From Paulownia fortunei (taxonomy: Eukaryota; Streptophyta; Magnoliopsida; Lamiales; Paulowniaceae): 64,000 nt of DNA. The DNA lies in NCBI GenBank assembly GCA_019321725.1, contig CM033109.1, positions 17,019,993 through 17,083,992 on the forward strand, given 5' to 3'. Shown piece by piece: positions 740-58,634 of the stretch. The position numbers were made by a program, and so were the translations under genes. Below the pieces are notes generated by a model. The model was not told where the DNA came from. It did no database searches and worked only from the letters and a program-made list of their open reading frames with translations. Positions within the stretch are counted from its first letter, which is position 1, and every line of letters begins with the position of its first letter.

Positions 740-2877
740 TATTAGAGTAATACTCGGTGCGCCAATTAGATTGGATGTCTTTTATACTCTTGTATTTGTT
801 AAAACAACCTTTTTCAAATATTATTAATAAAATAGGCAAATTTCTTTATCTTAAATTGCATTTTTGTAATTAGATAAACTCCATAGACCAAACTTATCTA
901 CGAGGTATTGTCACACATTTGATGGTGATCATGAAATATGCATTTATGGTTTTGGTCTTAAATTAGTTTCGAATCGAGAGCTTTTTGATATGGAATATTG
1001 AATAGCCTAATAGACTCACGTATATGATGCATGTTCGCATGAGAAGGATGTCTCGCTCTATGGACATTGACTTAGTTATGCTAGTGCATGTATGCAGGTG
1101 CTTGTTAGGGAACAAGTACTCTAAACAGGCCTGATGGAAATTCTTAATTGGAAAATTATTTGTCCAAATAAAAATTTCTATATTACAATATACACGATTA
1201 GTTCTTTTACTTGATGCACCATGGTAGCCTTGTGCATATCATGTTTCATTTTGATGTATCTTTTGATAGCCTGACAATCACAAAGGGGATATGTTGGATG
1301 TTGCATTGATATGTCTGGAGGTTAATAAGTGGCCAACAAAGGATCAGTCACTTGTTTGGTAGAACAAGTGAATCTCTTATATTTTCATAGTTCATGACTC
1401 AAAAGTCCTTAACCAAGGCAGGATGAATGTTGGACGGGATTTTCTAATGATTCGTTATGAGTCATTCAAACTTGAAATGGAATCATAGTTATTGAGCACT
1501 TAGGGTTTCGACTATTAATCTATGCCCTATGGTTTCGACTATTAATCTATGCCCTATAATTAATCGAGTGATTAGTTGATGGAAGGACCTTACATATATG
1601 ATACTTGTTATTAAAATAGGTTCACTCGGTATTTTACCTAAGTCTAGGTAGTCATGATACACTTGCTAGATATTTCCCATGACTTGTGAGGTTCTTGAAA
1701 TTAAAGAGTTAATTTCAAGTGGATTAATAAATTGGTTTAATTAATCAGATTAATTATTATTATTCATATGTTAAAAATATTGCAAGCCCACTGCTAGCTT
1801 AGTTGTGAACCTAAATGGAACATTTCCAACTTAGGAATTGATCCTAGGGGTTGGATCTAATTAATTAATGAAGATTAATTAATTGGGGTTTAAATTATTT
1901 CAATGAGTTGAACTAATTATTCAATTAAATATTTAGATTATTTAATTGGATCTAATAAGATTAGGAAATTACTTGATTGGATCAAATTAATTGTATAGTC
2001 CATAAGTTAATTTAATTGTTAAATAAATTTACTCAATTAAATAATTGAGTTATTTAACTAGGCTTAATTTGATTAAGTGGGCTAGATGGAATTAATTAAT
2101 TAAATTTGGGCTAAAATAATTAATTGAATTAATTGTGGAATTTATTTTAATTCCAAGACCAATTCAAAAAGGCTCATTATGAGAGGCACATAAAGGTGAT
2201 TGAAAAAGGATGAAAACTCAAGAGTTTGAAATTCTTGGAAAACCTTAAATATCTTTGGAAGATATGAAAAGGATAAAGTTGAAAAAAGTTTTGATAAATC
2301 AAAATATCTTTCAACCAATCAAGAGGAGATAAAAAATACTAAAAGTGGGACTCTTGAAATTTTTGAATCTCCTATACAAACACTACGTGTCCGAAAATTA
2401 AAATAAAAGTAATAGCCTTCAATTTTCAGCTATTTAGAAAGAGAAAGAGAAAGAAATTGTTTTCTCCTTCATTCTTTGTCCTATAAAAAATTTTATCTTT
2501 TATTTTAAGTATTAATTCTTTTATCACAAGTTGATAACAAAAATTAATATTGTAGATACACATTCCACAAACTAGGCTAGAAAAGAAATCATAATTGCTA
2601 GCAAAATTCTGATTTTGTATTCTTGCTCAAAGTGTGGAGACGCATGGATTCCTGTAAACCAAATTTAGAAAAGGTGCTAGCAATTAATTGCTTCAAACCC
2701 TAAAATAGCCAAAGTGCATAGAAAGTTATAAATTAAAATTTTAATTATTTTATTACAATCGTTGGAAATTGCAAGATTGTTAGAAATCACATTAGATCTG
2801 GGGTATTGCTATAATTATTATGGTATGATATTTTTAATTTTTTGCTGAGCATACCCCGGGATCACGTGAACCCAATA
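740..2877 (+). repeat. 5' LTR of Copia-1
   Basis: About 2.1 kb. It begins TATTAGAGTA (family start TGTTAGAGTA) and ends just before the primer binding site. The middle (about 1,720-2,150) is extremely rich in AATTAATT palindromes, the family hallmark. It contains a perfect 27-bp tandem duplication at 1,504-1,557. The first 560 bp align with 8,345-8,907. Confidence 0.85.
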
Positions 2878-2878
2878 G

Positions 2879-2891
2879 TAGTATCAGAGCC
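2879..2891 (+). other. Primer binding site of Copia-1
   Basis: TAGTATCAGAGCC is one base from the common plant PBS TGGTATCAGAGCC, complementary to the 3' end of initiator tRNA-Met. It lies directly after the 5' LTR. Confidence 0.8.
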
Positions 2892-4455
2892 ATGATTTGC
2901 GAAATTTCAATCGAATTTGATTTATGCCTATGAATTTAATTGGTACATTATGATTGATTTATTCTATTCTTGATTGGGATACAAATATTTTACAATTAAT
3001 TTAATTGTTAAACATAACATGTATGATTGAATTTGATTCAATTAGAAGAAAAAAAATACATAGCACGACAACGCGCAGTGGACAGCCCGCGCGTATTTGG
3101 TGACACACCAATAGCCCGCTCGCGCTGGCATCATGCTGCCGCATGCTGTAGGCAGTGCAGTGCTCGACAACGTACTGTGCGCGATGCATAGGGATCTTGA
3201 GCATCCTCATTGTTGAATTGCAAATTTTAATTTTTCAATTTTATAATTAAAGTGTTAATTTTAAAATTTTGAAAAAGGGGTTTTTCTTGAAAAAATGAGA
3301 TTTAATCCCAAGTCATGAAATTAAAATTTAAAAGGATGGTAAATTTACATGCTTTAATAAATTCATGTGATGTATTTATTAGTATGTATGGGATGATCAT
3401 GGAGTCTTTTGGAGCAATGTGATTGAATTTATTTATCTTTAGATTTTTGAAATGGGACCTACGAGTCTCTTATTCTTTTCTTATAAGTACTTTACATTTT
3501 TTAAATGAGAGTAGAATAGGGTGAGAATTTTATTTATTTATTTTTTCTTTTTGGTGGACGAGAAGAAGGGCCAAGATGAAGAATCAAAGAAGACCATGAA
3601 TATATGTGATATATTCATATAATAGAAATTAGTTTCTATTTCAATTCGGTTACCCTTAGATTGACCTAGATCTTTTTTTAACTCAAATGGATCCCATAGG
3701 ATTGACCCAAGATCATCGGGATTATGTATGTATCAAATGTATGCGTAGGGTTTATTTAATATTTTCAAATGATATACTTGCCGTCAATTGAATGCAAACT
3801 CATTAAATAAATTAAGATTAAAATTGATAAGGTCTTGGTTAAAATAAATACCCCACTTGAATTAAAGAATCAAGTAAAGGATTTTTTTAAATTCTGATTT
3901 CAAGCAAATATGGATAAAATTGGATTGGACTCAATAATCTATGCCCACCATCAAAAGTAATTAACATGACGATGCTACCTTACTTTGTCATTGGCCATGA
4001 ATCGTGGAATGACTCTATAATGGAAAGTTGTGATCTCTACTAAGTACGGTGAAGCCCATGGGATGGACTCGTCTCTACATTAGCCATGAGTTGTGGAACG
4101 TTTTGATGCTATATCTACATGGAGTCTTACTTGACATTTAGTACCATATGGGCTCATAAAATTGGGGTATATAGGAAGAAGTGAGGTAAAATATCTTGAG
4201 GGTTTCATGGAGATATAATCGTTAAAAGTTAATTACCTTTCAATATATTTTATGGGCTCGTAAAATGGCGCATATGACATATTGATTGGGCTTTAAGCCC
4301 ACTAGGAAATATAATTTCTCTAATTGCCTTTAGGGGTGATGAAATTCAAATAAAATAGTGGGAGACATTTATTACTAAAGACCTTGTTATAAATGAATAT
4401 AATTTTGAAAGGATGTTAATTTTTTTCCTCATTTAAATTTATAGATTGTCTATAA
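2892..4455 (+). other. Copia-1 leader, non-coding
   Basis: A 1.5-kb stretch between PBS and gag start. No open frame of interest is visible: the minus-strand frame at 3,001-3,210 shows no recognisable motif. It is probably the untranslated leader of the element transcript. Confidence 0.6.
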
Positions 4456-11189: not shown

Positions 11190-12660
11190 TTCTTCCTCCT
11201 TATAAAAAATTCATTCTCAAAGTTTGACGTAACAAATAATTTTGGATATTTGCTCTGCATTTCTGTTTCTCTTTCCCATGTTGCTTCTTCTATAGCATGA
11301 TTCCTCCATAATACTTTAACAAGTCGAATCTTTTTCATTCTCAATTCTTTTCGTTCTCAATTCTAGAATTTGCACTGGTTTCTCTTCATAAGTTAAATCA
11401 GGAGTCAATTCCAACAGTTCATAACTCAACACATGAGAGGGGTTTGAAATGTACTTCCTCAACATAGACACATGAAAAATATTGTGAACACTAGATAGAT
11501 AATGATGGAGGTAGAGCCACTCTATAAGCTTTATCACCAACTCTTTCGAGAATCTCGAATGGGCCGACATACCTTGGGCTTAGTTTTTCTTTCTTTCCAA
11601 CTCTAATGACACCTTTTATGGGAGCTACTTGTAAGAACACATGATCCCCAATAGCAAACTCTAGATCTTTTCTCCGTTTATCTACATAACTTTTCTGTCC
11701 ACTCTGTGCAAACTTCATTCTCTCTCGTATCTTCTCCACTACCTTAGCGATATGTTGCACTATTTTTTGACCAAGTAGGCTTCGTTCTCCAACTTCATCC
11801 ACTGAACTGTAGATCTACATTTCCTTCCATACAACGCTTCGTAAGGCATCATTCTAATTGTTGATTGGTAGCTATTATTATAAGTAAACTCTACTAATGG
11901 AAGCTTAGCATCCCAACTCCCTTGAAAATCTAGCACACAAGCTCTTAACATATCCTCTAATATCTGAATAAACCTCTCTGATTGTCCATCACTTTGTGGA
12001 TGAAATGTTGTACTAAATGCAAGTTTTGTTCCCATGGCACTGTGTAAGCTCTTCCAAAATTTAGATGTAAATTTAGGATCTCTGTTGGACACTATTGAAA
12101 CTAGTACCCCATGTAACTTGACTATCTATTTAATATATTATTGAGCATACTGATCCATATTGTATGTGGATTTCACTATAAGAAAATGGGTTGATTTAGT
12201 TCATCTATCAACAATCACCCATATGGAATTATACCCCTTTTGTGTTCTAGAAAATCTAAGCACAAAGTCCATTGTAATGTGCTCCCATTTCCACTCTGGA
12301 ATCAACAAAGGCTTCAACAACTGATGGTATTTGATGTTCAATCTTAACTTGTTGACAAGTTAGACATTCAGCAGTAAATTTTGCTATATCTCTCTTCATT
12401 TTAGGCCACCAATAATGTTGTTGTAAGTCCTTATACATTTTTGTGCTACCTGGGTGTGCTGAGTAAAAAGTAGTATGAGCTTCTTATAAAATATCTCCTT
12501 TCATAGCCTTGTCAAACGGCACACACAGTCTCCCTTTATATCGAATAATCCCATCATCAGTAATAGAGAAGTCTGACCTGTTTCCAGCCTCAATCATTCT
12601 TTTCAATCTACACAATTACATGTCCACCTTTTAACCTTCTCTGATTCTATCTTGAAGTGC
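11190..12660 (-). pseudogene. Chromovirus integrase with chromodomain-like end, pseudogene
   Basis: The minus-strand frames 12,438-12,256, 12,092-11,760, 11,802-11,491, 11,570-11,316 and 11,344-11,093 form one broken integrase. The H2C2 zinc finger shows YKDLQQHYWWPK and CLTCQQVK. The core has SNRDPKFTSKFW and FHPQSDGQSER. The GPF-like C-terminal module includes SPRYVGPFEIL. The end LWRNHAIEEATWE resembles the chromodomain that targets such integrases to heterochromatin. At least four frameshifts separate these pieces. A better preserved relative of the middle part sits alone at 23,317-24,459. Confidence 0.8.
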
Positions 12661-12726
12661 AGGTCTCAACACTGAGGATGATAACGAACACTTTTTCCCT
12701 TTAAGTACAATTTCAAGCTCTAATCT

Positions 12727-13990
12727 CTACAAATCTAGTAATATTGACTTTTGTATAACAAAAAGAGAAGACATGGATTTTCTATTCAATGCATCTGCAA
12801 CCACATTCGCTTTACTAGGATGATAGTTGATTACACAATCATAATCCTTCACAAGTTCTAACCACCTTCTTTGTCTCATATTCAGCTTTTTTTGGGTAAA
12901 AAAGTATTTCAAACTCTTATGATCTGTGTATATCTCACACTTCTTATCATACAAATAATGTCTCCAAATTTTTAAAGTAAAAAACCACAACAGCAAGTTC
13001 CAAATCATGGGTTGGATAATTCTTTTCATATTCCTTCAATTACCTTGAAGCATAGGCAGTAACCTTCCCATTTTGCATCAAAACAGCACCCAAATCATTT
13101 TTCAAAGCATCGCTATATACTACGAATCCACCAATTCCCGTCGGAATGGTAAGAACAGGGGTTGTAGTCAATTTATGTTTCAGTTCTTGAAAACTTCTTT
13201 CACAAACATCGGTCCACAAGAACTTCACATTCTTTCTTGTCAACATTATTATTGGAGTTGCTGCTAATCTCAAGAAACTCCTTACTTCTGATACATTCGT
13301 TGGTGTTGGCCACTTAATAACAGCTTCCATCTTGCTCGAATCAACAAAAATACCATCCTTTGATACTACATGACCTAGGAATACCACTTGTTCAAGTCAA
13401 AACTCACACTTCTTGAATTTAGCATACAACTGTTTTTCCTTAAGAACTTGCAGCACAATCTTCAAATGTTCTTTGTGCTCTTCTTTATCTTATGAATAAA
13501 TTAGGATATCATCAATAAACAAAATCACAAATTTATCAAGATATTGGTTAAACACCCTATTCATTAGATCCATAAAAGTTGTAGGGGCATTGGTTATACC
13601 AAAAGGCATCACTAGAAATTTACAATGTCCATACCTTGTTTGGAATGCAATCTTTGGTATGTCTTCTTCCTTGATTTTCAATTGATGATACCCAAAGTGC
13701 AAATCAATTTTAGAAAATACAAATGCTCCTTGCAATTGATCAAACAAATCATCTATTCTTGGGAGTGGATACTTATTCTTGACTGTTATTTTATTCAACT
13801 CTCTATAATCAATGCACAACCGCAATGTACCATCCTTCTTTTTCACAAACAACACAGATGCTCCCCAAGGAGAATAACTAGGGCAAATAAAACCCTTATC
13901 AAGCAATTCTTGCAATTGAACTTTTAACTCTTTCAATTATGTTGGTGCCATTCAGTATGGTGCTTTAGAAATAGTAGTAGTTCCTAGCAT
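12727..13990 (-). pseudogene. Chromovirus reverse transcriptase and RNase H pseudogene
   Basis: RT (13,936-13,490) reads [32 protein letters not shown] and the catalytic box FIDDIL, where Gypsy RTs usually have Y/F-x-DD. A TAA at 13,487-13,489 then breaks the frame. The thumb and RNase H follow at 13,387-12,727: FLGHVVSKDG, VVYSDALKNDLGAVLMQNGK, and [11 protein letters not shown] with the conserved YTDH. The aspartates are retained, but a frameshift near 13,035 splits the RNase H. Confidence 0.85.
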
Positions 13991-21896: not shown

Positions 21897-22370
21897 TATT
21901 GAGTTCGCAAAATCATGGGATAACATGCACAACAAAAAATAAAAGCTTTTGAAAATTTTAAATATACATACATCTCATTTATAATAAAACTAATCATAGA
22001 TTTGATGCGAGTATTGATTTGTATTTTTGACTTTTCACTTAACATAATTAAATAACTTAGTTTCACAAATTTATACCTTTCACATACTCTGGTTGACGAA
22101 GGGTATGAAGGAATTCCTCCAGCTCCACACGAACTCCTTCGTTGGATTCTTCCAAAAAGATTCACCAAGAGCTCCAAGTGTAACTCTTCCAATGATATCC
22201 ACACCTCAAGCAAACCCACAAGTACTAAATTCTGCTAGAGAATTTAAAATCTTTGTTTCTCATTTAATTTGGGTGTGAAGTATTAATTCTTAAATCAACA
22301 AGTGTTTAGAAGAATTAAACTTAATCAAAGGGATGAGACCTTTTAATGGAAAAGTATCTTGTATGTAAAG
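21897..22370 (-). repeat. Copia-3 3' LTR, first piece
   Basis: It starts TATTGAGTTC, the minus-strand form of the family LTR end, and aligns with the ends at 2,877 and 48,502. It runs to the target duplication TAAAG (22,366-22,370) of the nested Athila-like element. Confidence 0.7.
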
Positions 22371-22888
22371 TGATAAGTGCATATTTTGATATATATTTGT
22401 ATTAAATCCTTTATACTTTTCTTACTTTATTCTTGTTAATATTATAGTTTTATTAATGCTTTGTGTTAGGAAATCAATGAACAAAAAGAAATCAAAAAGA
22501 GCCAAAATAAAAAATCGAAGAAGACAATACGTTTTGTGAGCAAGTTGAGAGATAATATTTTATTGGATCAAAGAAACATCACAATTAGAAGAAAAGGGCC
22601 ATTTTTGCTTAAGTCCATCATGTGTCGATCAAAATATATATAAGAAATCACTTGGACTTTGTAAGTGATTGTTGGACTTACATTAAATTCAAAATAAGCA
22701 TGTTTGTAGACTTGGGCAGTTTTTGTATTTTGGGCATAGGTCCACGTTCTATAGCCCCATGGACCTAAATCTTACTTCATTTAATATAATTTTTTTGTTG
22801 GAAGCTCAACCCAATTTAGCCTTGATTAAAGCAGAAAATTCATCCAAGTGGGTGTATTAGAAGAAATCTATTTATGCTAACACATCTC
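22371..22888 (+). repeat. 5' LTR of the LOG-carrying element, truncated
   Basis: It aligns with the first part of the 3' LTR (27,560 onward) from TGATAAGTGCATATTTT to about CACATCTC at 22,888, then jumps into integrase sequence. About 0.9 kb of LTR is therefore missing from this copy. Confidence 0.85.
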
Positions 22889-23100
22889 TTTATAATTCTT
22901 GATTACATTTATTTTCTGAAAAATTGAGATCAAGGTAGAGTGGTCATTTTGTTATAAAAGAGGCATATCCTTATGGGTTGATTGACATTGAGAATCCTAG
23001 AAATAGTAACGTATTCAAAGTTAATGCACAAAGACTCAAACCATTTCTAGAAAATCAATTTTCACAACAGGATTTTTTTTCTAACATTAGTTATGATTAG
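22889..23100 (+). pseudogene. C-terminal integrase piece of the Athila-like element
   Basis: From 22,921 the frame reads KLRSR, a stop (TAG at 22,936), then SGHFVIKEAYPYGLIDIENP and NVFKVNAQRLKPFLENQF, ending at TAG 23,098. This is the conserved end of Athila/Tat pol polyproteins (YGAxDIExP...FKVNGxRLKxF in the family). It shows that everything from here to the 3' LTR is post-pol sequence of the same element. The stop replaces a Trp codon. Confidence 0.85.
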
Positions 23101-24766
23101 TATGTGTATATATATGTACATATTTTCTCTAACTTTGTTTGTTTTGTAGGCTTCTTTCTTTTTTTTCCCAATTAAGTGGCAAAAAACAGTTCTATTTGGC
23201 TATTGAAGTCGGATTAATCAGTTTCCCAAACAACTGAAATCTCTATATAAAGTTTCTCTCATTTTTTCTTTTTTTTTGTTCTTTTCAAAATGGATGATAT
23301 TCTTCTAACTCTCAAGATACAATACTTCATAAGGTGCCATTCCAATTGTTGATTGGTAGCTATTATTATAAGTAAACTCCACTAATGGAAGCTTTGCATC
23401 CCAACTCCCTTGAAAATCTAACACACAAGCTCTTAACATATCCTCTAATATCTGAATAACCCTCTCTGATTGTCCATCACTTTGTGGATGAAATGCTGTA
23501 CTGAATGCAAGTTTCGTTCCCATGGTACTGTATAAGCTCTTCCAAAATGTAGATGTAAACTCAGGATCTCTGTAAGACACTATTGAAACTGGCACCCCAT
23601 GTAACTTGACTATCTCTTTAATATATTGTTGAGCACACTGATCCATATTATACGTGGATTTCACTGGAAGAAAATTGACTGATTTAGTTAATCTATCAAC
23701 AATCACTCATATGGAATTATACCCCTTTTGTGTTCTAGGTAACCCAAGCACAAAATCCATTTTAATGTGCTCCCATTTTCACTCTGGAATCAACAAAGGT
23801 TTCAATAACCCTGATGGTCTTTGATGTTCAATCTTAACTTGTTGACAAGTTAGACATTCAACCACAAATTTTGCTATATCTCTCTTTATTTTAGGCCACC
23901 AATAATGTTGTTGTAAGTCCTTATACATTTTTGTGCTACCTGGGTGTACTGAGTAAGAAGTAGTATGAGCTTCTTCTAAAATATCTCCTTTCATGGCCTT
24001 GTCAAACGGCACACACAGTCTCCCTTTATATTGAATAATCCCATCATCAGTAATAGAGAACTCTGGCCTCTTTCCAGCCTCAATCATTTTTTTTAATCTA
24101 CATAAATGCGTGTCTACCTTTTGACCTTCTCTAATTCTATCTTGAAGTGTAGGTCTCAACACTAAGGTTGGCAACAAACACTTTTTCCCTTTAGGTACAA
24201 TTTCAAGCTCTAATCTCTGCAAATCCAGTAATATTGACTTTTGTATAATAAAAAGAGAAGACGTGGATTTTCTGCTCAATGCATCTGCAACCATATTCGC
24301 TTTACCAGGATGATAGTTGATCACACAATCATAATCCTTCACAAGTTCTAACCATCTTTTTTATCTCATATTCAACTCTTTTTGGGTAAAGAAGTACTTC
24401 AAACTCTTATGATCTGTGTATATCTCACACTTCTCACCATACAAATAATATCTCCAAGCGATTTCCTTTTCTTTTTAAAAATATAATTTTAAAAATTTAT
24501 AAAACCAAGTTTGAAAGATTAAGGATGCTTATGCATAAGGGCATCCCATGAGACATATGATGAATAAATGAAGCAAATGTAAGAATAGCATGTGAGTTTT
24601 CACATGAGTTTTCAAATATACTCACTAGGCACATGTTTGGTTTTGGTAAAAGCACATATTTAAAAAATCAAAGGGCAGAAAAATTTGTGCTTGATGGACT
24701 TGCAATACAAAGTGTCGTTCCTTAGAAATAGTTTTTAAAATTTGAGTAGATAAAATTCTATTCATT
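23101..24766 (+). other. Post-pol spacer of the LOG-carrying element, split by a chromovirus fragment
   Basis: Non-coding, T-rich with several poly-T runs. It is interrupted at 23,317-24,459 by an unrelated fragment. The flanks match, joined, the reverse complement of 63,563-64,000, which lacks the fragment. No gene is recognised. Confidence 0.7.
23317..24459 (-). pseudogene. LTR-less chromovirus pol fragment (RNase H end to integrase core)
   Basis: About 1.14 kb aligned with 11,829-12,985 of the chromovirus, in the same orientation. RNase H end: CVINYHPGKANMVADALSRK. H2C2 finger: YKDLQQHYWWPK and CLTCQQVK. Integrase core: VDRLTKSVNFLPVK, DPEFTSTFWKSLY and FHPQSDGQSERV. It is better preserved than the copy at 12 kb, so it comes from another source copy. 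It has no LTRs, no target duplication and no gag. At the left it begins after CTCAAG, and at the right GATTTCC resumes the spacer. The matching empty site keeps about 4 bases (AAGT) that are lost here. Confidence 0.85.
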
Positions 24767-24973
24767 ATGGATGGATTGAGTAAGGAGCTTTTAGATGACA
24801 TTATATTGACTCTTGAGATGCATTCATGTGGATTAGTGCAACGTGCAATTCTTGATTTATGTAATTACTTTTGGGATGAATATGAACATTATAGTCTTGG
24901 GAATCTGATATTAAAATATTCTGTTTGCCATTTTGTAAGAAAACTGAATAGGAAGCATATCCTCGACCTTTAG
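24767..24973 (+). CDS. Unknown ORF between integrase and LOG
   Basis: A 68-codon open frame from ATG 24,767 to TAG 24,971-24,973. The product starts MDGLSKELLDDIILTLEMHS and has a Cys/Tyr-rich middle with a basic end; I recognise no domain. Its start region (up to GTAAGGAG at 24,787) recurs, inverted, next to the second LOG copy at about 63,563-63,585, so it belongs to the mobile cargo. It could be a chance frame, a remnant of an env-like or additional ORF of the element, or 5' sequence captured together with LOG. Nothing seen decides. Confidence 0.3.
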   Translation: MDGLSKELLDDIILTLEMHSCGLVQRAILDLCNYFWDEYEHYSLGNLILKYSVCHFVRKLNRKHILDL

Positions 24974-25213
24974 AGGGCGTTTAAGTTATTACTGGATGTA
25001 AACCAGAGGAAGATTTGAGCCACAATCACAACTACATGTACATTCACATGTAAGTAGCAAATTTTTAAATTTTGTGTTCTTATTTTCAACCTTTGTGACA
25101 AAAGAAAAAAGCATGTAATAATTGCATTCCTTGTTCACACCTCAATAAATAACACCACACTTACTCTATTTTTGCACAACTCACTTAAAAAAAAGAATAT
25201 AAAAGAAAAAAAA

Positions 25214-25868
25214 ATGGAAGAGTTTTCCACTCGCAAATTCAATTGTATTTATGTCTTTTGTGGAACTAATTTAGGAAAAAAATGGTGAGTTTATAGGGGC
25301 AACCAATAAACTTGGCAGAACCTTAGTAGAAAGAAAAGTTCATTTAGTGTACAAGGGAGACAATTTGGGATTAATGAAGAGTACTGCTACTTCTGCTCAT
25401 GTAGGAGGAGTTAAAGTTTTAGGAGTTATCCTAAAACTTTTAACAGTACAAAATATCATAGGTATAATCATTGGAGATGAATTAAAAGTGTTACATATTC
25501 AAGATAGAATGCTTAACATGTTAAATAATGCAGATGCATTCATCACTCTAGCTGGCGGTTTTGGTACATTGGATGAATTATTTAAAATTATCTCTTGGGT
25601 ACAACTCAACATTCACCAGAAATTTATAGGTATTCTTAATGTTAATGGTTTCTTTGATGGTTTGCTATCTTTTGTAGATCAAGTTGTTGAAAAAAGTTTT
25701 ATTTCACCATCTCCAAGATAAATTCTCATTTCTGCTCCAATACCGGACCAACTGATTGATCAACTTTTAACATGTATGCCATAACCTAATCTAGCCTTGG
25801 CTCATGTGGATTGGTTCAACAAGGACAATGGTCAAAAACACAAAATGAATTTTACGCTCAGGTTGTGA
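25214..25868 (+). pseudogene. LOG-like cytokinin-activating phosphoribohydrolase, intronless copy inside a retrotransposon
   Basis: LOG enzymes cleave cytokinin nucleotides to active free bases. ATG 25,214 opens KFNCIYVFCGTNLGKK, the LOG N-terminus, which ends at TGA 25,286. The frame shifts after an A-run, and the rest is open from about 25,289 to TAA 25,719: TLVERKVHLVYKGDNLGLM, ADAFITLAGGFGTLDELF, and GFFDGLLSFVDQ. After two stops (25,719 and 25,782) the LOG C-terminus continues to TGA 25,866 (ILISAPIPDQLIDQLL, VDW, FTLRL). The span of about 218 codons is the full family length with no intron, although plant LOG genes have several. The family motifs PGGxGTxxE and GGGxxGLMG are altered (LAGGFGTLDE; KGDNLGLMK). 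It is dead as an enzyme gene in this copy. Confidence 0.85.
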
Positions 25869-25986
25869 AATTTATCCTTAATGGATTCAACGAATAGTGT
25901 ATATATTGTGTTGTTTCAGCTTTATTTTTCAATGAGTCACATTTCAGGTAATATCTTCTAAACTCTACTTTCATGCCTATTTTCGA

Positions 25987-26024
25987 CATTGGGGACAATG
26001 TCTTGATTAGGTTGGGGGAGGGGA
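25987..26024 (+). other. Athila/Tat-type G-rich motif after the cargo
   Basis: CATTGGGGACAATGTC followed by GGTTGGGGGAGGGG. Athila/Tat elements commonly carry a GGGGACAATGT ... TTTGGGGG block between the coding region and the 3' LTR. The second LOG copy has the same block at about 61,589-61,626. Confidence 0.6.
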
Positions 26025-27559
26025 TAGTTGATATCATGTTTTGTATGTTCAATGTGTGTTTTTCTAGTTTTTTTTTTTAAATTCAAGTGTGTTTTCTTTT
26101 TGGTCCATTGAAACCATGAAAAAATATGGTAGAGTAAAGGGTAACTTTAAATTCTTGAGATGTACCCCTATTTTTTTTTTTGCATAACATGAAAAGTGTG
26201 TGAAGTTTTTAACAAAAGTTTGTGAATTGTCAATTTTTTTTTAGTCGTAGATGTTCTTCCAACTTCAATAATTAAAATTAAGCACGAATAATGTGGTTTG
26301 ATTAATGATGGGTGTTGTTTTGGATTTTGATATTGTTCTTTCGTTAATATATTTTGTGATAATTATACTCAAATTATTTTGCACAAATAGTTATGTTATT
26401 CTGTGTGGAGACAAGCATGTCAAAATAGAAAGTTTTTATGCCCTCATTTTAATTATTACTTGATTTTTTTGACATGATAGGGTTGAGTGTTAGAATTTTT
26501 TTTTGGTCTATTGAGGCGAATGATTGATTGTGCACCACTTGAAAAATTATTAAGGTATTAAGATTTCTAGCACCATGACCAAATCAATTTGTTTCCCATA
26601 TGATGTTCCAAGAGAACATCCCCTATAGTGAGCCACTTTGAATCTTTCAATAAACAAGCATTTTTTTTTTGTAACCATATCATCTTACCTACCCTAAATA
26701 CACTATTATCCTACCCTTGTTTTAAAAATAATTTAAAGTTTAAGAGATATTCCATTGACAAGGTGAGCTTGCAAAAAAAATTTGGGTTGAAATAGAACAT
26801 AAGTGTGGGGGAATTTTTCTTCTAAAAAAAACAAAAAAAAAATTTGCAAAGTGTTAAAAATATTACGAGTTGAAACTAAAAATGGGATGTTGTAAAATCA
26901 ATAAGAATGATGAAGAGGGGTCCAATTCAATAACAGTACGCCTGTGTGTTGAAATTCGTGGTTTATGAGAATTCTTCAATGATATGATCTATGTCTCTAA
27001 CCCCATGAAATTTTTTATTCTTTAGCCACATCATTACCCATTGGCTCTATTACAACCTTTGTTGAAAACTTTTTGATTTTATGTGGTGTCTTTGGTGTAG
27101 TGGAGATTTGTACCAAAGGAAGAGCATATGACGTTTAAGTTTCCATTAGAGATTGGGTGATAGTTTTTGTGAGGTTTTATGGGAATTCATTTATTTGAAA
27201 TATGCATGGTTTCATCACTGTTGATATTAACTATTTACACATACACTTGAATATGCTTATTGTGGAAATGTATTAACTTTTGAATGAGTAAGAGTTATAT
27301 TCAACACTTTTTTGATTTCATTTCCTTATTACTTTGTTGTTTCCTGATAATAATAGTTAGAAGTTAGTTATTATAGGTGTTTATGGGTATCATCGCTGAA
27401 AACCCTTACGAGACTATGACTCATCCTTAATGGGCCACCTAAAGGTTTAAAAGCTTGTTGTATATGCTAAATGCAATCGTGATTTCCTACAAAAGTAGAT
27501 TAGTTTAGGTTTGTTTTGGACTTGCTCGAAGACGAACAAGGGTTAAGTATGCGGGAATT
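26025..27559 (+). other. 3' untranslated region of the LOG-carrying element
   Basis: Non-coding, with many poly-T and poly-A runs, ending in GTATGCGGGAATT, the likely priming purine tract just before the 3' LTR. Its first 250 bp match 61,627-61,860. No gene is seen. Confidence 0.6.
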
Positions 27560-28993
27560 TGATAAGTGCATATTTTAATATATTTTTATACTAAATCTTT
27601 TATACTTTCTTGCTTTATTTGTTAATACTATAGTTTTATTAATATTTAGTGTTAGAGAATCAATGAACAAAAAGAGATAAAAAAGAGCCAAAATAAAATC
27701 GAAGAAGATATTACGTTTCGTGAGCAAGTTGGGAGATAATATTTCATTGGATCAAAGAAGTATCACAATAAGAATAAAAAGGTCATTTTTGCCTAAGTTT
27801 ATCATGTGCAGATCAAAATATATGCAATATATCATTTGGACTTTACAAGTGATTGTGGGGCTTGCATTAAATTCAAAATAAGCATATTTCAAAACTTAAA
27901 TAGTTTTTGTATTTTGGGCATAACTCTATGTTCAAAAGCCCTATATACCTGAATCTTACTTCATTTGAAAATCAAAAGATAGAACTAGAATTTTGTTGTT
28001 GGAAGCTCGGCCAAATTCAACATTGATTAAAGTAAAAAATTCATCCAAGTAGGTGTATTGGAAAGAATTTATCTATGCTGATACATCTCCTCAAATCAAG
28101 CATAACTTTCTCCCTAATAGTTGGAATTAGGTGATTCAAGTTGAAAAATGATATCTACATCTTACATGTTGATCACTCTCTTAAATTCAACTAATTTCAT
28201 GGAGAAAAATATGTGAAAAAATTTGGATCTAACAAGAACATGTGAATTTAGAGCACATTTGAAATTAATTTGGAGTGAATTTGGAGATGCCAATTTAGGT
28301 ACTCTTCTACTATAAATAGGGGCTCTTGGATGACATTCAAGATACATAAAAATTCTTATAGGGGAAAGAAAGTTTTATTGTTGTCTTACTTTAGGTTATT
28401 TTTTTAGTAATGTAAGTTTTCTAGTAGTAATAGAAATGTATTCTCTAGTTTGTCTTCTATTTTTAGTCTTTTTTACTTTCATTATGTCTTTCTAAATTTT
28501 ATTGAGATGAGGAAAAAGGGTGAAGCTTTTGATGGAAGAAGAAGAATGGTTATAAATATGCATAATGTTATGATTATCTTAATACATAAATACTTGATTC
28601 CATAAATAAGTATTGGTATTAAGAGATAATTTACAAATAGTAAGACAATATTATGATTATCTTAATGCATGAGTTATTTAATAACATCTTCCCATTGGAA
28701 CCTTCATTATGTACGAATTCTAATTGTAGCATTTAAAAGAGGTAAAAAGAATAAATAATCGTTCCTCTATCCAAAACTCAAGAACGGATCCCTAATCCTC
28801 AGTACTTTTATTACTTTGATTTCTTAATTATAGCATAAACTTTTCTTTATATTGTAAACCACATTCAGCCAATCTTTTACAAAATATAAACCAAAAAACT
28901 TCAAATAACTTTCCTGTGGATCGACCTCGGACTCCAAAAAATTTATTACTTGACATAACATGCACTTGGGTTTGCAATCTTAAAATTGTAGCA
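27560..28993 (+). repeat. 3' LTR of the LOG-carrying element
   Basis: 1,434 bp, from TGATAAGTGC to TTGTAGCA. Its end, with GTGGATCGACCTCGGACTCC and GCACTTGGGTTTGCAATC, is typical of Athila/Tat LTRs and recurs inverted at 61,888-62,000. TATAAATAGGGG at 28,311-28,322 could be the TATA box of the LTR promoter. Confidence 0.85.
28311..28322 (+). promoter_or_regulatory. Possible TATA box in the 3' LTR
   Basis: TATAAATAGGGG lies mid-LTR, the expected U3/R position. It is a motif match only. A poly-A-signal-like AATAAG follows further downstream. Confidence 0.4.
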
Positions 28994-30214
28994 TAAAGAA
29001 CAAAACAAGAGAATAAAGAGAGAGAGAGAGAGAGAGGAGGGGGCTGATTTTTATGCAAGAATGCTAGTTCAAATTTGGCCCCTTTATGGTGTATTTATGT
29101 ACACCATGAAGTTTTGACCCAATCCCATTACGTCTTATCTTCCTTCCTTATTTATCTCTTTCTTATTTCTTTCTTTCTCTCCAAGACATAATCCTTTCCA
29201 ACTTTAAGTCGAAGTCTTTGATTCTCTAATCATGACACCATATTAGGCCTCCTAAGAGCCCATCAACCCTTGGACTTGAACTTTAATTAGTTAATTAAGT
29301 CTATTTAATTGATCCCCATCCATTAAACAAGCCCAATTTATTTAATTAATTGGTTCCATTAAGGCAACCTAATCAACTTAGGCCCAATTAAAAATAATCC
29401 TACTATTTTAGTTGGTTAAATTAATTTAACTCAAATTAATTTGAGCCCATTTAATTAATTGATTGAATTAATTAATTAATTAATTGAATTAATTAATTAA
29501 TTTACTTCCAATTGCCCTTGATCTCTGTTAGGTCTAATTAAATAATTTTATTAATTAGAATAATTAATTTAATTCATTAAATTAATTATAGATCAAGTTA
29601 ATTAATCAGCATTAATTAACTTAATCCAACACATTGGATCAAATACTAGATTAGAAGTAAATCATCTCAATTTGTGTGTGACCCATTAGATTCACAACTA
29701 AGGTAGTAGTGAGATTACAACTATTACAACATAGTGAATATATTAAAAATATATATTCTTGATCAATTAATCCAATTATTGATCAATCTTGAATTAACTC
29801 CTTAATTCTAAAAGCCTCACAAGTCAAGAGAAGTACCTTGCAGTGCATCTTGATTGCCTAGTATTAGGTGAGTAGTAAGTGAACCTTTTATGTTACGAGT
29901 GCTAAGCAAATATGATCCTTCTATCAATTAATCTCCAGATTAAAACCCTATTTTGACTTAATAACTATGATTTCATTTTAAGTAACATTGATCCTTTGAT
30001 AAAGCATTGGAAAAACTCTCGTCTATTATTCACCCTACCTTAGCCAAGATCTTCAAGATCAAGGGCTATGAAAACATAGGAGATTCATCTATTCCACTAG
30101 ATAGGTGACAGATCATTTGTTGGCCACTCATTAGCCTCCATACATGAGACTATACACCTAACACAAACCCTTTATGATTGTAATTCAATTAGGAAATACA
30201 TCAAAGTGTATAAT
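28994..30214 (-). repeat. Copia-3 3' LTR, second piece
   Basis: It resumes at the second TAAAG copy (28,994-28,998), passes a (GA)n run at 29,017-29,037 and the AATTAATT-rich block at 29,280-29,620, and ends at the lone LTR. The first two pieces joined align with the uninterrupted LTR at 62,686-63,200. Confidence 0.75.
29017..29037 (+). repeat. (GA)n microsatellite
   Basis: About ten GA units inside the Copia-3 LTR; the corresponding part of the LTR at 63,140 has only a few. Confidence 0.9.
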
Positions 30215-48501: not shown

Positions 48502-50437
48502 TGTTGGGTTCATTATGACCATGAGGTAAGCGCAGTAGAAATTAAAAATTTAATAAAAACATGCATTAACAATTAATGCACTACCTTAAGTAATCGAAAG
48601 CGATTTAATAATCGACAATATATAAATAATATAATTAAATAGTGTGAATATTGATACCTTTTTCACTCCTTCATTAATAATGCAAGGAATGGGGCAATCA
48701 ATTACTGGATGGTTGCAAATACGCCTCAAAGGAGTCCACGCATCCTCCATCCAAAAAAAAGTCCACACGTTGGACAAGAACACTGAATATAATAAAATTG
48801 CTAGTTTCTACTATTTTCTTTTCTAGCCCAGTGTAGAGTGAACTTATAACCTTTTAATCCAACTTGTGAATTAAAGATTAAAGTTTATTCAATTGTTCTA
48901 ATTTAACTTGTAAAAGAAGAACAATTAAAAAATGCACTTGAGCAATATAAGAGAAGAGAAAAGGAAGACAAAATGAAGAAAATAATTTTTCTTCTAATTC
49001 TTGCTCTAACCGAAAATTACAAGAGTATTGGAGATAAAAAAATTTGTGTTCAATATATCATATATATTGAACACATGGTAATTAGTTTGTATGGAAAAGT
49101 CTCACTTTCCTTAACAAACTAAAAACATAAGCACAAAATAAAATCTTTCCTTTTTTTTTAATTATGGCCGAATTTTGCTTGCAAAAATTAGGGCAACATT
49201 TGCTCCTTTTGTCTTGTCTTCCCATAAATTCTTATGTATAATATCATATATTATTTAAATAAGTAAATCTTATTAACTTATTTAATTTCTCTTATTTTCA
49301 AGTGGGCTTCCAACAAGCCTAGTTAAACTTGAGCTTGGACTTCTCCAAGTCCATTTAATTAATCCAATAAATTAAATTAGTCCAAGTCTAAATTAATTGA
49401 TCCAATCAATTAATTTATTCACTTCAATTGGATACCTAATCTCATTAGGTTCAATTATATAGTCATACTATTTAATTGAATAATTAATTCAACTATTTGA
49501 ATTAATTTAATCTTTTAATTAATTAATCCAACTAATTAATTATATCAATCCCTTGGATTGATTATTAGGTGAAATAGCAAGTGATCTTATTCCAGTTACA
49601 AGTACCGTGCACGTAAGGTCCTTCCATTAACTAATCTCCCGATTGAGTCTAGGGGGATAATAGTCGAAACCCTAATCGACTCAATATCTATGATTTCATT
49701 TCATGTTGCAGTGACTCTTAATGAATCATTAGGAACCCTTTTCTGATATTCACTCTACCTTAGTCAAGGTCTTCCAAGTCACGAACTATAAAAATATAGG
49801 AGATTCACTTGTTCTACCCAATAAGTGACGGATCCTTTATTAGCCACTCATTAACCTTCATACGTATAAATACAATACCCAACATAACCCCTTTATGATT
49901 GTCAGGTAATTAGAGAATACATCTAAGTAAGGCATTACACGTATAAGGTTACCATGGTGCCTTAAGTCAAAGGACTAGTCATATACTTTCATAACATATA
50001 AATTCTTAATTCAACATTTGGGATTTCCAACTAAGAATTTCAAGCAGGTCAGTTCAGTGTACTTATTTTCTAACAAGCACCTATATACATGCACTTGTAT
50101 CTTTATGCTGATGTCCATGGAATGGGACATTCTCGTCTATGAGCATGCATCGTATGTGCAAGTCTTATTAGGCTATTCGATATCTCTTCTCAAAAAACCC
50201 TCGACTCGGAACATAGTTTAAGATCAAAGCCATAGAGACATATTCCATGATCGCCATCATATGCATGACCATGCCCCATAGCTATAATTGATCTAGGGAC
50301 TTTATGCAATGTGCAATAAATAAATGCGAGCCATAAGATAAAGAAAATACCTTTAATAAATGTATTACAACTGAGAAAGTCTATTACAAGAGTAAATAAC
50401 AGCTAATCTAATTGGCACACCGGACACTACTCTAACA
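48502..50437 (-). repeat. Copia-4 LTR a (complete 3' LTR)
   Basis: 1,936 bp with both termini. Relative to LTRs b and c it lacks about 220 bp at 49,565, where GGATTGATTATTAGGTG joins directly. Confidence 0.85.
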
Positions 50438-53012
50438 ATCTCCCACTTATCTTAGCGCCAATTGCCTATGTATGTGAGGCCTATCTTTTCAAAATGTTCG
50501 TCAAATGCTTTATGCATTAAAGGCTTAGTTAGTGGGTCTGCTATATTTTCTGTCAAGGCGATTCTATCCACCATGACATACCTCTACCAATGATCTCTCT
50601 GATTAGGTGGTATCGTCTCATTGTATGCTTGGACTGTTGATGAGAACTTGCTCCCTCGCTTGCGCAATAGCCCCATTATTATCACAGTATATCAATGCTG
50701 GATTAACAATAGATGGAACTACACCCAACTCTTGGATGAAGTTATTTATCCAAACAACCTCCTTATCTAAACAACCTCATTTGTTGAATCATATGCAGTA
50801 GTATACTCAGCTTCAGTAGTGGAGCCTGCGATCGTCTCTTACTTGGAACTCTTCTAGCTAACCACACCACCATTCAAGTTGAATATGAATCCAGACATCA
50901 ACTTTGAGTCATCTATATCCAACTAGAAACTAGAATCGGTATAATCTTCTAGCTTTAATTCCCCATCGCCGTATATTAAGAAGATATCCTTAGTCATTCT
51001 CAAGTACTTAAGGATCATCTTCACAGCCTTCCAGTGCTCTTTGCCTGGATTGGACTAATATCTGCTCGTGACACTTGGAGCATGTGCGATATTAGGCCTC
51101 GTACATAGCAAATACATAAGGTATGCGAGTCATCATTTCTCTTTTCTAAGGAGTCTTAGGTGATATAAACTTCGAGAGAGAAATGCCATGACTCATTGAC
51201 AGGAATCCTCTCTAGATTTCTTCATGCTAAACCTCTTTAGCATCTTATCTATGTACGTGAAATAGGATAATCCAATCATCTTTCTAGATCTATCCCTATA
51301 GATCTTTATACCAAGGGTGAATAATGCGTCTCCCAAATTCTTCATGAAGAATTGGTTAGACAACCAAGTCTTAGTTGACTGCAGCATCCCTATATTATTC
51401 CCAATGAGTAGGATGTCATTAATATATAGCACAAAAAATGTCACTGCACTCCCACTAACCTTCTTGTACACTTGTTCATCCGAGTTCTTATAAAAATCAA
51501 ATATTTTGATTATCTCATCAAATTGGATGTTCCAGCTTTAGAAAGTTTGGTTGAGTCCATAAATGGATCTCTAGAGTTTACAAACCTTTTGTTCACTCCC
51601 ACTGGATATAAAGCCCTTAGGCTACCTCATGTAGATCTCGTTCTTAATGTTTCCATTTAGGAAAGCGGTCTTCACATCCATCTGCCATATTTCATAGTTA
51701 TAATATGCAGATATAGCAAGCAAAATTCGAATGGATTTAAGCATCGCAATTGGTGAAAAAGTTTCCTCATAGTCAATTCCTTGCTTCTAAGAATAACCTT
51801 TTGCGACCAATCGAGCTTTATAGGTCACTACCTCTCCATTTACTCTAAGCTTTCACTTGTAGATCCATTTGCAGCCAATGGGAACAATTCCATGTGGGGG
51901 TCCACCAAGGTGTATACCTTGGAGTACATAGAGTCCATCTCGGACTGCATGGCTTTATCCTGAATTAATGTCTGACATCACTTCTCCATAGGTACTTGAG
52001 TCACTATCCAATGGGAGACTCTCCTCGCTTTTCTTTAATAGAAAGCCATACCTCTCATGTAGCTTTGAGATCCTCTCAGATCTCTTAGGAAGTTGTGTAT
52101 CAGAAGGTCCAGCCTCAACCGATGGGACTTCCATTGCGGTATTAGTGGTGTTCTGTGGTTATTAAACTTCTTCAAGTTCCACGACTTGCCCATTTCTATC
52201 TAATAGAAAGTCCTCCTCTAAGAAGGTGATATTTCTCAAAACAAATACCTTTTGTTCTGAAGTATTGTAGAAATAGTATCCAATTAACTCTCTTCGACTA
52301 CCCCACGAACTTGCATAAATTGGATCTCATATATAACTTATCTCCCACTTGCTGCTTCACATAAACAGCACACCCACATACCCTAAGGTATTTATAGGAG
52401 GGTGACTTGCCACACCATATCTCATATGGTGTTTTGGCATAGCTTTTGATGGCACTTTGTTCAAAAGATATGCCGCAGTTTCTAGGCATAACCTCAAAAT
52501 GAAAAAGGTAATGTAGTGAAGCTCATCATAGATCGAACCATGTCTAATAGAGTTCGATTTCTATGCTCAACAACTCCATCGAGCTGGGGAGTAGCAGGTA
52601 GAGTCTACTGTGAGAGAATCCCATTCTCTTTTAGATAACTCAAAAACTCAGCACTCAAGTACTTACCTCCTTGATCTGATCGAAGAGCCTTGATACTTAG
52701 TCTATTTTATTTCTCTAATTCATGTCTGAACTCCTTGAACATTTTAAAGGCTTCAGACTTATACATAAAAAGGTACACATAACCATACCTAGAGAAATCA
52801 TCGGTAAAGGTTATAAAGTAGTAAAAATTCCCTTGGGCACTAACACTTAGTGGCCCACAAACATCTGTGTGGATCAAATCCAATACATTCTTTGCATGTT
52901 CCACTTGTCTAAAAAATGGAGACTTAGTCATTTTTCCTAGACATGATTCACATGTTGGCAGTCCTTGCTCTCCCCTAAGGTCAAGCAATTATTGCCAACT
53001 TGTTAATCCTCT
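50438..53012 (-). pseudogene. Copia-4 pol block a
   Basis: RNase H, RT and integrase on the minus strand. Best frames: 52,988-52,707 (LPTCESCLGKMTKSPFFRQ, FTDDFSRYGYVYLF), 52,489-52,298 (KTPYEIWCGKSPSYKYLRVC) and 51,471-51,193 (VSGSAVTFFVLYINDILLIG, where RT YVDD is YIND). A 30-bp deletion near 51,110 relative to block b removes part of the GSIMYGML segment. The RT catalytic Asp change and many stops make it defective. Confidence 0.8.
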
Positions 53013-54501
53013 CCCCTAAAATCTTTCCTTTTTTTTTTCATTATGGCCGAATTTTGCTTGCAAAAATTAGGGCAATATTTGCTCCTTTTGTCTTGTCTTC
53101 CAAGCATATAAATTTATCCTATAAATTTATATGTATAATATCATATATTATTTAAATAAGTAAATCTTATTCACTTATTTAATTTCTCTTATTTTCAAGT
53201 GAGCTTCCAACAAGTTTAATTAAACTTGGGCTTGAACTTCTCCAAGTCCATTTAATTAATCCAATAAATTAAATTAGTCTAAGTCTAAATTAATTGATCT
53301 AATAAATTAAGTTATTCACTCTAATTGGATTCCTAATCTCATTAAGTCCAATTAAATAGTCCTACTATTTAATTGAATAATTAATTCAACTCTTTGAATT
53401 AATTTAATCCTTTAATTAATTATATCCAACCCCTTGGATGATTTATAGACTACAGATGTTTTATTCCAAATTGTGTGTGACCCTTTAGGTTCACTTCTAT
53501 GCTAGTAGTAGGTTTGCAATATTTACAACTTATGAATAATAATTATTCTGATTAATTAATCTAATTAATTGATCTGCTATGCATTAACTCCTTAATTCCT
53601 AGAACCTCACTATCCATAAAACCACATAGCGAGTATTCACGACAAACTAATCTTAGGTGAAATAGCAAGTGATCCTATTCCAGTTACAAGTACCATGCAC
53701 GTAAGGTCCTTCCATTAACTAATCTGCTGATTGAGTCTAGGGGGATAATAGTCGAAACCCTAATCGACTCAATATCTATGATTGCAATGACTCTTAATGA
53801 ATCATCAGGAACCTTTTTGTGATATTCACTCTGCCTTAGCCAAGGTCTTCTGAGTCACGAACTATAAAAATATAGGAAATTCACTTGTTCTACCCGACAA
53901 GTGACGGATCCTTTATTGGCCACTCATTAACCTTCATACGCATAAATACAATACCCAACATAACCCTTTTATGATTGTCAGGTAATTAGAGGATACATCT
54001 AAGTAAGGCATTATACGTATAAGGTTACCATGGTACCTCAAGTCAAAGGACTAGTCATGCACTTTCATAACATAGAAATTCTAATTCAACATTTGGGATT
54101 TCCAACTAAGAATTTCAAGCAGGTCAGTTCAGTGTACTTGTTCTCTAACAAGCACCTACATACAAGCACTTGTATCTCTACGCTGATGTCCATGGAATGG
54201 GACATTCTCGTCTACGAGCATGCATCGTATGTGAAAGTCTTATTGTGCTATTCGATGTCCCTTCTCAAAAAGCCCTCAACTCAGAACATAGTTTAAGATC
54301 AAAGCCATAGAGGCATATTCCATGATCGTCATCATATGCGTGACCATGCCCCATAGTTATAATTGATCTAGGGACTTTATTCAATGTGCAATAAATAAAT
54401 ATGAGCCATAAGATAAAGAATAAATGTATTACAACTGAGAAAGTCTATTACAAGAGTAAATAACGGCCAATCTAATTGGCACACCGGGCACTACTCTAAC
54501 A
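53013..54501 (-). repeat. Copia-4 LTR b (truncated, internal)
   Basis: It lacks the first 0.6 kb (window-left part) of LTR a. It starts at AATCTTTCC..ATTATGGCCG and ends CTCTAACA before ATCTCCCACTTGTC. Confidence 0.85.
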
Positions 54502-57112: not shown

Positions 57113-57114
57113 CC

Positions 57115-58634
57115 CCTAAAATCTTTCCTTTTTTTTCATTATGGCCGAATTTTGCTTGCAAATTAGGGCAACATTTGCTCCTTTTATCTTGTCTTCCAAG
57201 CATATAAATTTATCCCATAAATTTATATGTATAATATCATATATTATTTAAATAAGTAAATCTTATTCACTTATTTAATTTCTCTTATTTTCAAGTGGGC
57301 TTCCAACAAGCCTAATTAAACTTGGGCTTGAACTTCTCCAAGTCCATTTAATTAATCCAATAAATTAAATTAGTCCAAGTCTAAATTAATTGATCTAATC
57401 AATTAAGTTATTCACTCCAATTGGATTCCTAATCTCATTAGGTCCAATTAAATAGTCCTACTATTTAATTGAATAATTAATTCAACTCTTTAAATTAATT
57501 TAATTCTTTAATTAATTAATCTAATTAATTAATTATATCCAATCTCTTGGATGATTTATAGACTACAGATGTTTTATTCCAAATTGTGTGTGACCCTTTA
57601 GGTTCACTTTTATGCTATTAGTAGGTTTGCAATATTTACAACTTATGAATAATAATTATTCTGATTAATTAATCTAATTAATTGATCTGCTATGCATTAA
57701 CTCCTTAATTTCTAGAACCTCACTATCCATAAAACACCTAGCGAGTAATCACGACAAACTAATCTTAGGTGAAATAGCAAGGATCCTATTTTAGTTACGA
57801 GTACCATGCACGTAAGTTCCTTCCATCAACTAATCTACTGATTGAGTTTAGAGCATGGATAATAGTCGAAACCCTAATTGACTCAATATCTATGATTTCA
57901 TTTTATGTGACTCTTAATGAATCATCAGAGGCCCTTTTCTGATATTCACTTTGCCTTGGCCAAGGTCTTCCGAGTCACGAACTATAAAAATAAAGGAGAT
58001 TCACTTGTTCTAACCGAAAAGTGATGGATTCTTTATTGGTCACTCATTAACCTTTATACATATAAATACAATACCCAACATAACCCCTTTATGATTGTCA
58101 GGCAATTAGAGGATACATCTAAGTAAGGCATTACATGTATAAGGTTATCATGGTACCTCAAGTCAAAGGACTAGTCGTGCACTACCATAACGTAGAAATT
58201 CTTAATTCGACATTTGGGATTTCCAACTATGAATTTCAAGTAGGTGAGTTACGTGTACTTGTTCTCTAATAGGCACCCACATACATGCACTTGCGTCTCT
58301 ATGTTGATGTCCATGGAATGGGACATTCTCGTCTTATGAGCATGCATCGTATGTGCGAGTCTTATTGTGCTATTCGATGTCCCTTCTCAAAAAGCCCTCG
58401 ACTCCGAATATAGTGTAAGATCAAATCCATAGAGGCATGTTCTATGATCATCATCACATGTACGACCATGCCCTATAGCTATAATTGATCTAGGGACTTT
58501 ATCTAATGTACAATAAATAAATACGAGCCATAAGATAAAGACAATGCCTTTAATAAATGTATTACAACTGAGAAAGTCTATTACAAGAGTAAATAATGGT
58601 CAATCTAATTGGCACACTGGGCACTACTCTAATA
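57115..58634 (-). repeat. Copia-4 LTR c (truncated inner end, intact outer end)
   Basis: It matches LTR b over its length and ends CTCTAATA at 58,634, directly followed by the GGATT duplication. Confidence 0.85.

Follow-up and report, generated by a model that had tools for sequence, protein, structure and literature searches.

Does a LOG gene lying inside a retrotransposon represent a host transcript picked up recently by a single element, or has it long been a gene of the element itself? The question is raised by a 64-kb stretch of the Paulownia fortunei genome (C5:17019993-17083992, the whole of which is called the window here and supplies the coordinates given), in which a long terminal repeat (LTR) retrotransposon at 22371-28993 carries a coding sequence of the cytokinin-activating LOG family. 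An earlier note on this DNA favored pick-up of a processed transcript and suggested an effect on cytokinin dosage. We find that the element belongs to a high-copy family in which LOG follows integrase and a second extra reading frame, called ORF A below. The LOG proteins of this family and of its relatives in other plants (cargo LOGs) make up a single clade that lies outside the sampled canonical LOGs of land plants, differ from these at proposed substrate-pocket residues, and in most cases end in a distinctive basic tail. The copy in the window is a dead, internally deleted, nested element.

Results

LOG is carried by a high-copy retrotransposon family

When the Paulownia genome (509,145,858 bases) was searched with the DNA of the LOG stretch, a first look yielded 2,230 candidates. 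All 40 that were scored matched, these being the window copy itself and 39 others at 85-86% spread over many contigs. For a canonical LOG3 query the candidates numbered 3,356, and each of the 150 scored matched with a long intronless frame at 44-53%; by hand count 100 of these lacked an internal stop. The prediction of a multi-copy family having other open LOG copies was therefore borne out, and the possibility that LOG occurs only at this site was rejected.

Twenty loci of 10 kb were inspected, of which 16 came from the upper and middle parts of the LOG3-query list and the remaining four from its lower part. Integrase, ORF A, and LOG were on the same strand and in fixed order in 18 of the 20, in agreement with the earlier reading of LOG as element cargo placed after integrase. 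Reverse transcriptase (RT) was found upstream on the LOG strand in 14 loci, and a search of the first 3,300 bases found gag on that strand in 14. LTR-pair evidence covers eight loci (five long pairs and three short edge repeats). Long pairs surround LOG in L092 (98.1%) and L095 (97.8%), a matching 5' LTR was present in all three loci to which the upstream 8 kb was added (L091, L094, and L098 at 99.2%, 97.4%, and 97.0%), and short repeats that fit an LTR pair lie at the stretch ends of L101, L103, and L105. In the sampled genomic copies gag, protease, RT, RNase H, and integrase are found in cis, with RT, RNase H, and integrase in the order seen in Ty3/gypsy elements, and the window element is ~80% identical to the inspected family copies over 24456-27665. 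The family is a high-copy Ty3/gypsy-type LTR retrotransposon of the order LTR, gag, protease, RT, RNase H, integrase, ORF A, LOG, LTR. We consider this LOG-carrying family, together with the anatomy of the window element given below, to be highly probable. The Athila affinity given in the earlier note is presumptive, being based on integrase-end and LTR motifs, and no ATHILA domain was among the listed Pfam matches of 17 gene models.

LOG was open over 217 codons, with the tail at its end, in 17 of the 20 loci (the exceptions were L106, L107, and L108). Among 16 open LOGs (L105 was left out) the polymorphic columns were distributed 17/9/27 by codon position (chi-square p 0.01). This pattern is as would be expected under protein constraint and is taken as support only, the copies being related and having been picked as open. 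In L089, a ~1-kb tandem duplication (98.3%) was seen inside pol at 2222-4270 of the locus. In L090, the LOG copy lies beside an inverted partial family copy, and window positions 26080-27665 match both strands there.

Cargo LOGs form a single clade

Two trees were made, with cargo LOGs sampled from Lamiales, Reevesia, Diplodiscus, Populus, and Citrus. The first had 54 rows (30 cargo, 21 canonical, and three algal or protist LOGs), and all cargo LOGs were on one side of a branch with support of 100/98. The second had 43 rows, including 15 cargo LOGs, nine canonical LOGs (among them a conifer LOG and LOG8), and 16 bacterial LOGs. Cargo LOGs were again a single clade (100/99), and cargo plus the nine canonical rows grouped together at 97/91. 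In the first tree, two green-algal LOGs were closer to the canonical rows than were the cargo LOGs (96/82), an algal-plus-canonical arrangement that the AU test does not reject (p 0.477). Note that most canonical rows represent the LOG1/LOG3 type and that the cargo branch is long. The 16 bacterial LOGs used as outgroup came from a search of genome contigs for LOG relatives, in which all of the 80 loci kept were bacterial. As the cargo LOGs form one clade outside the sampled canonical land-plant LOGs, the capture is old, and recent capture of a host LOG was rejected on this ground.

Cargo LOGs lack two proposed pocket residues and mostly have a basic tail

The protein relatives taken were the best 120 of 247 matches. 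They came from Paulownia, Rehmannia, Orobanche, Reevesia, Populus, Diplodiscus, and others, many of them multi-copy, and one Orobanche hederae protein cluster has 244 members. Residues and tails were counted in proteins of at least 213 aa, a threshold that dropped 46 of 120 cargo-set and 11 of 120 canonical proteins, leaving 74 and 109, respectively. According to PMC4979012, Arg99 and Glu122 of CgLOG are catalytic and Lys100 and Glu125 are proposed adenine/prenyl sites. The catalytic residues were kept in 67 (Arg99) and 71 (Glu122) of the 74 cargo-set proteins, whereas Lys100 and Glu125 were each absent from all 74 and present in 109/109 canonical and 16/16 bacterial LOGs. His97 was kept in 12 and Trp129 in 48 of the 74. 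The Citrus copies have Arg in 5/7, Ala in place of Glu122 in 7/7, and PGD in place of the PGG turn in 7/7. The exact PGGxGTxxE motif was found in 77 of 109 readable cargo-set proteins. The LOG-family profiles PF03641 and TIGR00730 scored above cut-off in the cargo LOG, and the NCBIfam equivalog NF058542 remained below its cut-off of 300 for the scanned cargo proteins and for the canonical protein P0121 alike.

The C-terminal end provides a further difference. The pattern [LF]x[LF]xL was present there in 49/74 cargo proteins versus 0/109 canonical LOGs, and a basic run was present in the tail in 52/74 versus 0/109. In 2,000 rounds of tail shuffling, the number of tails having [LF]x[LF]xL averaged 0.22 with a maximum of three. 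LxLxL is the pattern of the EAR motif. Citrus models that reach the protein end retain the cargo tail, and in a search limited to long proteins it was found at the end of 10 of the 43 gene models matched. That the LOG product is a nucleoside-monophosphate hydrolase acting on another substrate is possible, and a tail-mediated contact with co-repressors is somewhat less so. A different function would be unlikely and standard cytokinin activation unlikelier still.

ORF A encodes a basic zinc-finger protein

ORF A encodes a protein of ~185 aa having a basic stretch and a C-x2-C-x4-C-x3-C finger, and the frame is open over at least 150 codons with the finger in 12 of the 20 loci. In all four open Paulownia frames, which are near copies of one another, Carla_C4 (PF01623) was the best Pfam match at 23.1-25.4 bits (cut-off 20.9), followed in all four by Viral_NABP at 17.3-20.3 bits, below its cut-off of 23. 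Carla_C4 ranked first for three of four Citrus/Primulina ORF A pieces and exceeded its cut-off for one; of ten whole models, two passed and two narrowly missed. ORF A matched nothing in PDB at E values up to 1 and nothing in NCBIfam, and scans of viral contigs with P0061, P0053, and ORF A gave no relative. The likeness is a lead that may point to the nucleic-acid-binding proteins of plant viruses, rather than proof of kinship.

Related gene models in other plants

Among the 43 long gene models, a retroelement domain and a LOG-family domain occurred together in 23 by hand count (19 from Citrus and four from Primulina), with P0276 counted on a retroviral-type protease only and P0274 on the SLOG domain PF18306 only. 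The remaining 20 were other fusions, canonical LOGs, algal, bacterial, or fungal proteins, or models without a listed pol domain. Domain order was scanned in 17 long models. It was gag-protease-RT-integrase zinc domain-LOG in P0258, RT-integrase-LOG in P0246 and P0250, and integrase-ORF A-LOG in P0262. Citrus and Primulina thus share an order that matches the one read from Paulownia DNA. LOG is ahead of the pol or gag part in P0244, P0261, P0263, P0266, and P0275, as would result from fusion to the following element.

In the Citrus model P0266, a viral movement-protein domain (PF01107) accompanies the LOG and RNase H domains, probably a neighboring viral insert fused by the gene caller. The Populus proteins P0053, P0090, and P0097, named LOGL10, bear the cargo tail, and P0053 falls inside the cargo clade; annotated cytokinin genes may be retroelement genes.

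The window element is a dead, nested copy

The features of the window element and of its relatives in the window are collected in Table 1. The element begins with TG and ends with CA at 28993, and a direct repeat (22371-22888 and 27560-28089) beginning TGATAAGTG is 81.5% identical over 535 columns. Together with the target-site duplications, which were examined in this copy only, these features are those of an LTR retrotransposon and agree with the earlier description, as do the sense integrase end ahead of LOG and the G-rich block after it. When the flanks are joined, they align through the insertion point with 62723-63610 (61% over 975 columns), showing that the element did insert into that sequence and that the host sequence, a putative Copia LTR, is continuous once the element is removed, as had been claimed. 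LTR divergence (Kimura two-parameter (K2P) distance 0.171 over 513 sites) and substitution rates of 1.3e-8 and 7e-9 suggest an insertion age of 6.6-12.2 million years.

Other parts of the earlier description did not hold. The element has lost gag, RT, and most of its 5' LTR, and the integrase end abuts the LTR remnant at ~22888. ORF A, the antisense pol insert that interrupts it, and a further LOG copy in the window had been missed. The pol insert is presumably chromovirus-like. The ORF A sequences flanking it are continuous in the other window copy (63988-63908 and 63908-63555). The LOG sequence is full length and intronless as stated, with a frame of 25214-25865 by match to P0002, but it is not intact: the frame shifts near 25280 and is interrupted by two stops. 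A 148-codon open stretch (25275-25721) matches PF03641 (E 3.8e-28), TIGR00730, and AtLOG3 (PDB 2a33, E 1.5e-35).

Table 1 Features of the LOG-carrying element and of its relatives within the window.
Feature	Position	Strand	Remarks
Left target-site duplication, TAAAG	22366-22370	.	
5' LTR remnant, first ~517 bases	22371-22887	+	81.5% match to 3' LTR, ending at 22888
Integrase C-terminal end, with stops	22888-23097	+	62% identity to Primulina P0262 over 22888-23013
ORF A start, cut by insert	23291-23316	+	Other copy continuous there, 63988-63908
Later antisense insert, pol fragment with H2C2 domain	23317-24457	-	91.7% to 11829-12967
Remainder of ORF A (zinc-finger protein), broken	24450-24973	+	tblastn with Citrus ORF A, E 2e-26
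Full-length LOG-like gene, broken	25214-25868	+	Ends ...HKMNFTLRL
G-rich block	25984-26023	+	Common to second LOG copy of the window
3' LTR, CA at end	27560-28993	+	1,434 bases
Right target-site duplication, TAAAG	28994-28998	.	
Second LOG copy, broken	60696-61849	+	78.6% over 1,194 columns; G-rich block 61586-61625
LTR-end fragment of LOG-carrying family	61888-62012	-	
Second ORF A copy, broken	63555-63988	-	Strand opposite to second LOG copy

The second LOG copy gives LOG matches in pieces and with stops over 60855-61465, and bases preceding LOG are also included. LTR-like sequence separates this copy from its ORF A on the opposite strand, an arrangement that suggests inversion after nested insertions. 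Elsewhere in the window, two overlapping blocks of ~5 kb (49565-54499 and 53653-58632) are 91.9% identical in a region of Copia-like reading frames and represent a local duplication or a nested pair. Rfam and tRNA scans of the 64-kb window found nothing.

Discussion

Carriage of LOG by LTR elements is of a kind already known, whereas the earlier note knew of no LOG in this position. PMC9289625 gives a YgdH (LOG-protein) domain in LTR-retrotransposon consensuses of Citrus sinensis and C. clementina, with Populus trichocarpa below the filter, in line with Steinbauerova et al. 2011, which is cited there. These elements likewise have a LOG-family extra domain in plant Gypsy-type elements, and Citrus and Populus relatives of the Paulownia cargo LOG came up in our protein searches. 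The section of PMC9289625 concerned gives domain and species only and does not treat where in the element the domain lies, nor ORF A, the clade, the pocket, the tail, or Lamiales members. Our literature search on LOG/YgdH and retrotransposons, extra ORFs, Carla_C4, and EAR/TOPLESS found this paper as the sole direct prior art; the companion ORF A, changed pocket, tail, single clade, and Lamiales members were not found in the literature searched. Two other plant systems resemble this one in part. A Phalaenopsis Gypsy element with an AlkB-type RNA demethylase, also described in PMC9289625, likewise has a host-like enzyme as an extra element gene; it differs in enzyme and plant and in that activity was shown in vitro there. 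Retand elements, as surveyed in the part of PMC11963269 concerned, likewise have extra ORFs between pol and the 3' LTR, but these are mostly antisense and TRP28, and no sense ORF of that interval had a known domain in the survey. Compared with the canonical plant LOGs AtLOG3 and AtLOG8, most cargo LOGs share the protein family and the catalytic Arg and Glu but differ by the absent pocket Lys and Glu, the basic LxLxL-like tail of most members, and the element context.

How did LOG enter these elements, and why would it be kept? Host retrocopies that are dispersed and simply happen to lie near retroelements would be intronless and scattered as the LOGs are, and the L090 LOG does stand without integrase or ORF A in place. 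The fixed integrase-ORF A-LOG spacing of 18 loci, the LTR pairs that enclose the unit, and the same order in Citrus and Primulina models make this explanation hardly credible, and it was rejected. The proposal of the earlier note, taken as recent capture of a processed host transcript able to raise cytokinin dosage, fits an intronless LOG placed after integrase, retention of the catalytic pair in most cargo proteins, and the many open copies. We regard it as very unlikely, given the position of the cargo clade in the LOG trees, the universal loss of Lys100 and Glu125 in the 74 cargo proteins, and the broken window copy; the loss of the catalytic Glu in Citrus makes a dosage effect more doubtful still. 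An old capture could instead have left a LOG that is active with normal specificity and persists because locally produced cytokinin would favor dividing cells that express the element. The retained catalytic pair and the frequent exact PGGxGTxxE motif are in keeping with this idea, which nonetheless seems unlikely in view of the altered pocket residues in every cargo protein counted and of the Citrus LOGs, which have lost the Glu while still keeping the tail where the model reaches the end.

We infer that a LOG, probably of plant origin, entered the element lineage in the distant past and has since been retained as an element gene. Most likely, ORF A and the LOG-like protein would act as accessory proteins of the element, probably nuclear ones. 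ORF A would bind nucleic acid, and the 217-aa LOG-like protein would be a nucleoside-monophosphate hydrolase having a changed base pocket in most lineages and being non-catalytic in Citrus, with its basic, EAR-like tail serving nuclear entry or co-repressor contact. In its full form the proposal is that a eudicot element lineage has a two-gene nuclear module, a virus-like zinc-finger protein plus a repurposed LOG of changed substrate, that recruits TOPLESS-type co-repressors through the tail and shapes host expression or silencing in favor of the element; this full form may be correct but is rather improbable. The virus-like label is itself contestable. There is nearly as good a case that ORF A is a basic zinc-finger protein unrelated to the plant-virus proteins, since its low-scoring Pfam match spans only ~35 residues of a basic, cysteine-rich motif and PDB gave no match. 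Standing against this are the first rank of Carla_C4, above cut-off, in every open Paulownia frame (near copies, as said), Viral_NABP as the runner-up below its own cut-off, and the Citrus/Primulina results, in which Carla_C4 led in three of four pieces (one above cut-off) and passed in two of ten whole models.

Several observations weigh against our reading of the family and of its LOG. The Carla_C4 match is weak as well as short. The 20-locus sample is biased to intact copies, and even so L090 lacks integrase and ORF A beside LOG, L104 lacks integrase and has ORF A only, and many of the matches to RT, integrase, and ORF A come in pieces or contain stops, so the elements may not be fully intact. 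Automatic gene models can fuse neighbors wrongly, and the Citrus and Primulina orders are therefore support, not proof. The cargo LOGs may have split off within land plants or before, as sister to the land-plant LOGs or as a deeper branch. Bacterial MmLOG also differs at a pocket site (the MmLOG comparison in PMC4979012), and thus a changed pocket need not change the reaction. The catalytic Glu is lost in all seven Citrus copies (P0244-P0250), and the strict tail is missing in 25 of 74 proteins, all of them named Orobanche (P0041 of Orobanche minor has it); hence no single function is proven for all lineages. Finally, the two window LOG copies lack a third-position excess (37/208, 42/206, and 41/208 differences by codon position, with 22/149 and 55/363 in the flanking regions), and this evenness gives no sign of selection between these relics.

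Extra enzyme domains fixed in plant LTR elements are considered rare (PMC9289625). The cargo LOG is open in many copies, has relatives in both rosids and asterids, and travels with a virus-like gene, and for these reasons its benefit to the element is testable. Moreover, some annotated LOG genes, such as the relatives of Populus LOGL10 and the 244-member Orobanche cluster, may belong to retroelements, and such genes among annotations would distort counts of cytokinin genes.

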